Assembly (NCBI GenBank): GCA_026393985.1
Contig: JAPKZB010000087.1
Coordinates: 18,556 to 82,555, forward strand
Direction of reading: 5' to 3'
DNA from: Acidobacteriota bacterium
GTDB lineage: Bacteria; Acidobacteriota; Terriglobia; Bryobacterales; Bryobacteraceae
DNA length: 64,000 nucleotides
Below the pieces are notes generated by a model that saw nothing but the letters and a program-made list of their open reading frames with translations, searched no databases and was not told the DNA's origin. This document shows, piece by piece, positions 13,120-15,148 of this stretch (its first letter is position 1; each line of letters begins with the position of its first letter). Position numbers and translations under genes: made by a program.

Positions 13120-13200
13120 TCTTCCCTGATCACTCGCGCGAATGACGGAAAAAGTCCGTCGAGGGAAACGCTGATGGGGTCATGTTACACCTTCCGCATG

Positions 13201-13206
13201 TATAAT
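13201..13206 (+). promoter_or_regulatory. Candidate -10 box (TATAAT) just upstream of the TssB-TssC-like gene
   Basis: A perfect TATAAT ends 10 bases before the ATG at 13217. No recognisable -35 lies 17 bases upstream. If it is used, the transcript would have only a few leader bases. Confidence 0.4.
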
Positions 13207-13216
13207 CGGGAGCGCC

Positions 13217-14716
13217 ATGGCGAAAACTGCAATGCCTGAAGTATTTCTGGATGTCGATCCGCTGCGGCGTTCGACCGCGCGGCCGGAGCCCGACGCGCCA
13301 TTTCATATCTTAATTTTGGGGGATTTTTCCGGACGGACGAGCCGGGGGGTCGTAGAGCCGTTGACCGGGCGCCGCCCGTTGGCTGTCGATCGGGACGAGA
13401 TCGACACCGTGATGCGGAGTCTAAACATCCAGTTGCGCCTTCCCCTGGGCGCCGATGGGGCCGCGGCTGACCTGGCGATCGCGGAACTCGACGACTTTCA
13501 TCCCGATCGCATCCTGGCCACGCAGCCGCTGTTTGCCGCCCTGCAGCAGATGCGCCGGCGTCTCGAAAATCCGGCGTCGTTCCGGGCCGCTACCGACGAG
13601 ATTCTGGGTGGCTTGGCGAAACCACCCGCGCCGCCCGCCGCGGCGCCGGAGGCCGGCATCGTAACCGGCAGCCTGCTCGACGCGATCGTCGACGGTGCCG
13701 AGCCCGCTCCGCAGCCCACCGCCCGGCGAAAGCCCGCCGATGCCCTGCTGGCCTACGTGCACGACCTGGTGGCTCCTCATCTCGAACAAACCAAGGACCC
13801 GCAGCAGAAGGCGCTGCTGGCTGACTTGGACGAGACGATCGCCGGGCAGATGCGGGCGCTTTTGCACCAGCCCCAGTTTCAGGCCCTCGAAAGCTCCTGG
13901 CGAGCGCTCGATTGGCTGGTGCGCCATACCGAAACGGATTCGCAGCTGCGGCTTTACCTGCTCGATGTCAGCAAGGCGGAGTTGATTGCCGACCTCGCCA
14001 CGGCCAGCGACTTGCGGACGACCGCCTTGTACCGGTTGTTGGTAACGCAGCCGACGGAGGGGGAACCCTGGTCGCTGCTGGGCACCGATCTGTACTTCCG
14101 GCCCTGGATCGACGAGATCGAACTGTTCGCTCGGTTGGCCATGATTGCCGACCAGGCTGGAGCGCCGCTGCTGTCGGGGGCGGACCCGTCGGTTCTGGGC
14201 GTGAAAAGTTCCGAGGATCTGCGGCACACCGAGGATTGGGAAGAGGGTGACCCGCTTTGGCGCGAGATGCGGCAACTGCCCGAGGCGCGGCGGATTGGTT
14301 TGGCCCTGCCGCGGTTCCTGGTCCGGTTGCCCTATGGCAAGCTATCGAATCCCGTTGAGCGGTTCGCCTTCGAGGAGATGCCGAACCGCACTTCGATGCA
14401 TGCCGGATACCTGTGGGCCAATCCCATGTATGCGTGTGTGCAACTTACCGCGCACGCCTTCGCCGTCAACCGTTGGCAGATGCGCCCCGGGCAGTTTCAG
14501 AACATCGACGGATTGCCATTGCACGCTTATGTGGACTGTGGCAGCCCCGAGGTGAAGCCCTGCGCCGAGGTGCTCCTGACCCTGCAGGCGGCCGAACGGA
14601 TGATCGCTCAGGGTCTGATGCCGCTTTTAACCATGAAGGGAACCGATACGGTCCGTGTGGGCATGTTTCAGTCGATTGCGGATCCGCCGGCACCACTCGA
14701 AGGGCGGTGGCGGTAA
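13217..14716 (+). CDS. Orphan type VI secretion sheath-like protein, TssB-like N-terminus fused to TssC-like region
   Basis: Residues about 25-135 resemble the small sheath subunit TssB/VipA (PFHILILGDFSGR, then DRDEIDTVMR and a DDFHPD segment). Residues about 190-490 resemble the large subunit TssC/VipB: FQALESSWRALDWLV, LLDVSKAELIADL, ALYRLLV, IGLALPRFLVRLPYG and GLMPLLTMKGTD. Normal TssB (about 165 residues) plus TssC (about 490) would exceed 650 residues, so at 499 the fusion is shortened, mainly by a proline-rich joint and the lack of the far TssC C-terminus. No other secretion genes (TssK, Hcp, VgrG, ClpV) occur in the window. It may work with a dispersed atypical contractile system or have taken another structural role. 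An almost leaderless promoter is suggested upstream. Confidence 0.75.
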   Translation: MAKTAMPEVFLDVDPLRRSTARPEPDAPFHILILGDFSGRTSRGVVEPLTGRRPLAVDRDEIDTVMRSLNIQLRLPLGADGAAADLAIAELDDFHPDRILATQPLFAALQQMRRRLENPASFRAATDEILGGLAKPPAPPAAAPEAGIVTGSLLDAIVDGAEPAPQPTARRKPADALLAYVHDLVAPHLEQTKDPQQKALLADLDETIAGQMRALLHQPQFQALESSWRALDWLVRHTETDSQLRLYLLDVSKAELIADLATASDLRTTALYRLLVTQPTEGEPWSLLGTDLYFRPWIDEIELFARLAMIADQAGAPLLSGADPSVLGVKSSEDLRHTEDWEEGDPLWREMRQLPEARRIGLALPRFLVRLPYGKLSNPVERFAFEEMPNRTSMHAGYLWANPMYACVQLTAHAFAVNRWQMRPGQFQNIDGLPLHAYVDCGSPEVKPCAEVLLTLQAAERMIAQGLMPLLTMKGTDTVRVGMFQSIADPPAPLEGRWR

Positions 14717-14739
14717 CCGGCGGGGGATCCGTTTCGCTG

Positions 14740-14745
14740 TATACT
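14740..14745 (+). promoter_or_regulatory. Candidate -10 box (TATACT) upstream of the DksA/TraR-like gene
   Basis: TATACT lies 16 bases before the ATG at 14762 and is followed by AGGA. No good -35 element is visible 17 bases upstream. Confidence 0.3.
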
Positions 14746-14761
14746 AGGATGAAAGTTCTTA

Positions 14762-15148
14762 ATGAATCAATCTGACAGAAAGAAGTTCCACGCGATGCTA
14801 CTCGCCAAGCAGATCGAGTTGCAGAACCGGCTGGCTCGCCGTGATGACCTGGAGGTTCAGGTATCACCGGACGAATTTGATGCGCGGCTACAGTTGGTAG
14901 ACCGGGAGTTTCAAAGCGGCCTGCTCCATCAGACGGCGTTGGATCTTCGCGAAGTTCGGGCCGCGCTCGTCAGAATTGACGACGAAAGCTACGGTATTTG
15001 CGCCGAGTGCGACGAACCGATCTCTTCTCTCCGCCTGCAGGTGATCCCCTGGGCCAACTATTGCGTCAAGTGCCAGGAGCAGATCGAGATGGAAAAACAA
15101 CTCGAAGATCTCGACGAACGACCGCAGGAGTTAGTTCCGAGCGAGTAA
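14762..15148 (+). CDS. DksA/TraR-family zinc-finger transcription factor
   Basis: The 128-residue protein has an N-terminal coiled-coil region rich in K, E, Q and R, and a C4 zinc finger CAEC-x17-CVKC near residues 80-105. This is the DksA/TraR architecture that enters the RNA polymerase secondary channel and modulates initiation, often together with ppGpp. An earlier ATG at 14750 opens a short frame that stops at once, so 14762 is used. The gene follows the sheath-like gene by 45 bases and converges on the HlyD-type gene. It is shorter than E. coli DksA (151 residues) and closer in size to stand-alone paralogues, so the symbol dksA is not assigned. Confidence 0.85.
   Translation: MNQSDRKKFHAMLLAKQIELQNRLARRDDLEVQVSPDEFDARLQLVDREFQSGLLHQTALDLREVRAALVRIDDESYGICAECDEPISSLRLQVIPWANYCVKCQEQIEMEKQLEDLDERPQELVPSE

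Follow-up and report, generated by a model that had tools for sequence, protein, structure and literature searches.

A compact TssB-TssC fusion without the handshake domain is a probable accessory of the resident type VI secretion sheath

What does a contractile-sheath protein do in a place where it has no partners? The gene at 13217..14716 of the window (the whole stretch of 64 kb of Acidobacteriota DNA analysed here) carries signatures of both sheath subunits of the type VI secretion system (T6SS), and the window contains no other T6SS gene. The preliminary description of this DNA offered a minimal contractile device, a dispersed one, or a sheath protein recruited to a new task as possible answers. 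We examined the gene, the rest of its genome, and its relatives.

The coding sequence, defined by its ORF and by Pfam and NCBIfam matches, lies on the forward strand, as do all features given below, starts with ATG and encodes 499 residues. Its TssB-like (VipA) domain (residues 24–118; 13286..13570) matches PF05591 with 47.7 bits against a cut-off of 24. The N-terminal domain of TssC (VipB; residues 200–481; 13814..14659), identified by Pfam and Foldseek, matches PF05943 with 196.8 bits against a cut-off of 27. The Pfam scan of the 499-residue protein detected no other family. Both domains were found in all 65 homologues. The joining of the two subunit signatures in one gene, as claimed in the preliminary description, was thus confirmed; the homologues keep the fusion, and the N-terminal region, for which a failure to match TssB would have refuted the claim, did match it. 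The protein is neither a typical TssB nor a typical TssC, since it scored below both NCBIfam equivalog cut-offs (195.5 bits against 271.5 for the TssC model TIGR03355, and 44.3 bits against 97.25 for the TssB model TIGR03358); moreover, TssB is a separate small protein, whereas the TssB part here is fused into the 499-residue chain. The ELDDFHPD signature in the TssB part (residues 90–97; 13484..13507) is invariant over the 65 homologues. Further upstream, EVFLDVD (residues 8–14; 13238..13258) is, from its hydrophobic pattern, a candidate equivalent of the N-terminal handshake donor strand (beta1) of TssB. Such an alternating hydrophobic pattern occurs at the N-terminus of 49 of 67 homologues, as against 18% expected in shuffled sequences, and the segment, which has a low pLDDT in the structural model, could be a TssB donor arm. 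In addition, a TATAAT box, separated from the ATG by about 10 bases, overlaps a GGGAG stretch resembling a ribosome site (window 13180-13217); this overlap could indicate a near-leaderless transcript or be due to chance.

In the published sheath, the C-terminal strands of TssC and the N-terminal strand (beta1) of TssB form the handshake, TssB and TssC strands jointly form the middle layer, and helices form the outer layer (PMC5807055). The C-terminal gpW/gp25-like handshake domain of TssC (PF18945) is absent from the fusion and from all 65 aligned homologues, in agreement with the preliminary description, which had noted the loss of the far C-terminus of TssC. The same domain was detected in the controls, the TssC of the same genome and a TssC40 homologue, and a genome-wide search for a split-off copy found PF18945 only within TssC. 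An AlphaFold2 monomer computed with the family alignment gave a confident predicted fold (pLDDT 84.7 and pTM 0.84), and its best PDB matches by Foldseek were TssC/VipB structures (E about 1e-18 to 1e-20). The preliminary description had proposed structure prediction as a test for a handshake-sheath fold; the fold predicted for the monomer is sheath-like. Judged from the alignment, the fusion keeps the middle and outer layers in a single chain and has lost the TssC handshake strands.

The end of the protein is itself conserved. The C-terminal tail FQSIADPPAPLEGRWR (14666..14713) stops just short of the point where the handshake domain of TssC starts, and most homologues stop at most about 10 residues from a conserved (G)RW. 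Among the 65 homologues, S486 and W498 are nearly invariant and 20 alignment columns are invariant. Comparison with three relatives of 84–88% identity gave dN/dS values of 0.054–0.078, showing that the gene is under strong purifying selection. The shared end and the low dN/dS led us to conclude that the truncation is a fixed, conserved feature and not damage. In one relative (L009:10001-11456), the fusion is broken into two frames (317 and 191 residues), reflecting either a sequencing error or a broken copy.

The source genome (5.9 Mb, 96 contigs, 97.9% complete) contains a complete T6SS. On contig C1, tssB, tssC, hcp, tagJ, tssA, tssE, tssF, tssG, clpV, and vgrG follow one another, and contig C16 carries two tssK genes, tssL, and tssM; the fusion is apart from both, on contig C73. 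The TssC of C1 scores 468 bits with PF05943, as against 199 bits for the fusion. The presence of a conventional T6SS with a better-matching TssC rules out the minimal stand-alone device, and the isolation noted in the preliminary description holds within the 64-kb window but not genome-wide. The word "dispersed" was partly right, since the T6SS genes are distributed among three contigs, but the complete ordinary T6SS argues against a separate device. The immediate neighbours of the fusion (a DksA-like gene at 14762-15148, a methyltransferase gene, and an HlyD-like gene) are common to its closest relatives only and are therefore uninformative on its function. No promoter motif common to the upstream sequences of the fusion, C1, and C16 was evident by eye. 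The two tssK genes on C16 (130700-131989 and 133779-135068; L093:10646-12013 and 13725-15080) encode full-length proteins that are 39% identical to each other and flank a proline-rich gene without a Pfam family, with tssL and tssM following. Within the class, about 24 genomes with a T6SS have two tssK copies, whether or not they carry the fusion; the pairing suggests a two-TssK baseplate, and we rejected it as a fusion-linked trait because it also occurs in T6SS genomes lacking the fusion.

The association between the fusion and the T6SS extends beyond this genome. In raw counts that ignore kinship, the fusion was found in 17 of 151 genomes of the class, and 16 of these 17 also encode a true TssC, the single exception being an 86%-complete assembly; 118 of the 151 have neither gene. 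Counted in the same way, a true TssC was present in 46 of 50 further fusion-carrying genomes, which were picked mostly for a fusion located away from the T6SS core genes. These results strongly support a near-obligate co-occurrence of the fusion with a complete T6SS, and the absences are soft because many of the relatives are metagenome-assembled genomes. About half of the T6SS-bearing genomes among the 151 lack the fusion, indicating that it is not essential everywhere. One genome of the same genus as the source (G097, 97% complete) has TssC and the fusion and gave no TssK match, reflecting either an assembly gap or a loss.

Comparison of the gene neighbourhoods of 80 relative loci showed that the fusion is placed inside T6SS clusters in many of them, from several phyla. 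It lies directly after clpV in one locus (L014), between clpV and vgrG in sulfate reducers and related bacteria (L013, L023, L026, L029, and L032), immediately upstream of tssB in three loci (L012, L021, and L022), and next to tssK in six (L060, L066, L069, L076, L080, and L084). The fusions of roseobacter plasmids and of Eleftheria are also within T6SS clusters, the Eleftheria copy adjoining tssK. In Pyrinomonadaceae and their kin, the fusion is directly upstream of an mnmG-like gene followed by parA and parB; this conserved order was observed in about ten loci (L035, L036, L037, L039, L040, L042, L045, L047, L061, and L062).

A fusion of this kind has been described before. A 2022 study gave the name TssCL to a roseobacter protein of 1,684 residues that contains two VipA domains and a single VipB domain, reporting that it was undetected outside Alphaproteobacteria and assigning no function (PMC9515649). 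In our tree of TssC-like domains, all 85 fusions form one clade apart from TssC and TssC40 (SH-aLRT 100), and the roseobacter plasmid fusions (L086, L097, and L098) fall inside it. The source gene is therefore of the TssCL kind, in a compact form. The rows of the tree represent Acidobacteriota, Thermodesulfobacteriota, Myxococcota, Planctomycetota, Gemmatimonadota, Verrucomicrobiota, and Pseudomonadota; one further bin, labelled Chloroflexota, is nearly identical to an alphaproteobacterial one and may be misbinned. The phylogeny thus shows that TssCL-kind fusions are spread over many phyla, which corrects the published picture of a recent event in Alphaproteobacteria. The two forms share a VipA domain and a VipB N-domain in one gene that is additional to separate tssB and tssC genes, and the roseobacter fusions also lack PF18945 (L086). 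They differ in that the published form has 1,684 residues and two VipA domains and is encoded inside a T6SS cluster, whereas the source fusion has 499 residues and one VipA domain and is encoded far from the T6SS genes, in an acidobacterial genome.

The linker between the two domains gave a hint of how the fusion might engage the machine. In V. cholerae, an N-terminal helix of TssC with the motif LLDEII docks on ClpV (PMC4239648). SLLDAIV in the fusion (residues 152–158; 13670..13690) aligns with this LLDEII-type motif in the TssC chains of the PDB entries 5urw and 5ojq, and the AlphaFold2 model has a short helix at residues 153–158 in an otherwise disordered linker. SLLDAIV is thus an apparent candidate for a ClpV-docking helix. 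In 35 of 36 genomes, the class of the linker motif matches that of the TssC of the same genome: LLD-type TssC accompanies LLD-type fusions, and EFxxLLxKEF-type TssC accompanies variants such as TIERLLG and DFQRLIG. This concordance is suggestive and not proven, because the classes were set after inspection of the sequences and the tree contains only 2–4 independent changes; some members lack the motif or have a degenerate form of it. The distances among TssC proteins and among fusions are also correlated (Spearman 0.62, with none of 2000 permutations as high), a correlation that may arise from shared ancestry alone.

Taken together, we propose, with a probability of about 60%, that the fusion is an accessory sheath protomer that lacks the handshake domain and acts on the sheath or ClpV of the resident T6SS. 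The new job offered in the preliminary description is accordingly the answer that survives and is favoured here. The protein would be a single-chain copy of the TssB/TssC protomer that retains the middle and outer layers, domains 2 and 3, but not the inner handshake domain. We infer that it cannot propagate the sheath lattice, since the TssC strands that accept the handshake and pass it on are missing. Through the surfaces that it keeps, perhaps helped by the N-terminal TssB-type arm, it may bind the true sheath, either along the outside or at one end, and would present the putative ClpV-docking helix, thereby modulating the growth of the sheath or the point of ClpV engagement for its disassembly. 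As to the exact step, a role as a cap, an adaptor, or a ClpV regulator is our best guess. A wider claim, that the fusions constitute a third, phylum-spanning class of sheath-derived T6SS subunits with a defined place on the sheath (a cap or the ClpV start site), is offered tentatively and may well not hold. If it is true, many environmental bacteria rely for the length or the recycling of their sheaths on a part that is absent from the model systems.

A motif of the ClpV type in a flexible linker, the agreement of its class with the cognate TssC, and the position directly after clpV in L014 would also suit a soluble regulator or decoy that stays out of the sheath, competes with TssC for the N-domain of ClpV, and tunes recycling. 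We consider this unlikely, because the conserved and strongly selected protomer fold (domains 2 and 3) exceeds the needs of a motif carrier and because the fusion is placed by tssK or tssB in several clusters.

The adjacency to tssK in the six loci listed above and in Eleftheria would instead fit a place on the baseplate side, where the sheath fold would seed or chaperone TssBC together with TssK, TssA, or TssE. This adjacency is lineage-specific, however, the fusion has no domain known to bind TssK, and about half of the T6SS genomes of the class build the machine without the fusion; we therefore regard a baseplate-side or assembly factor as rather improbable. A contractile device of its own, minimal or dispersed, would explain why the gene is alone in the window and why the Pyrinomonadaceae keep it stably outside T6SS clusters, upstream of mnmG-parA-parB, but this explanation is largely refuted by the lack of the handshake domain in every member and of any stand-alone PF18945 in the genome, by the complete ordinary T6SS, and by the near-obligate co-occurrence with TssC. 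The truncation, the position outside the T6SS operon of the source genome, and the split frame in L009 might bring to mind an old tssB-tssC duplication of which the fusion is a decaying remnant. This is refuted by the dN/dS of 0.05–0.08, by the 20 invariant columns, and by the same truncation and C-terminus across many phyla.

The accessory protomer that we favour matters because models of how the T6SS sheath is assembled and disassembled rest on a few Proteobacteria, which were not found here to carry the fusion. A conserved mimic of the protomer that has a docking motif and lacks the interlocking domain would be naturally suited to act as a stop, a start, or a timer; the control of sheath length and the timing of ClpV become testable in culturable roseobacters.

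The fusion can also be set against other known sheath-related proteins. In its TssB core and TssC N-domain it resembles canonical TssB/VipA and TssC/VipB in both fold and sequence, and it has an LLDxI-type motif like that for ClpV docking; it differs from them in being a single chain without PF18945, in scoring below the NCBIfam equivalog cut-offs, and in forming a separate clade. Agrobacterium TssC40/ImpD, which is needed for Hcp secretion (PMC3702570), is likewise a second TssC-like protein besides the true TssC. We rejected it as an orthologue because TssC40 homologues keep PF18945, have no TssB part, and group with TssC; TssC40-like and fusion genes occur together in some genomes (L099 with L046). 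TagJ/HsiE1 is an accessory thought to connect ClpV and the sheath (PMC4239648), similar to the role proposed for the fusion, but it consists of an unrelated domain (ImpE, PF07024), and the source genome encodes TagJ as well. An LLD-type motif in TssC and the presence of TagJ have been described as mutually exclusive, except in Solibacter usitatus (PMC4239648). On contig C1, a TssC with the motif LLDQIV is encoded alongside TagJ (L003:11293-12777 and 13477-14220), and the same pairing of an LLD-motif TssC with TagJ was observed in four other loci from Acidobacteriota (L012, L021, L022, and L069).
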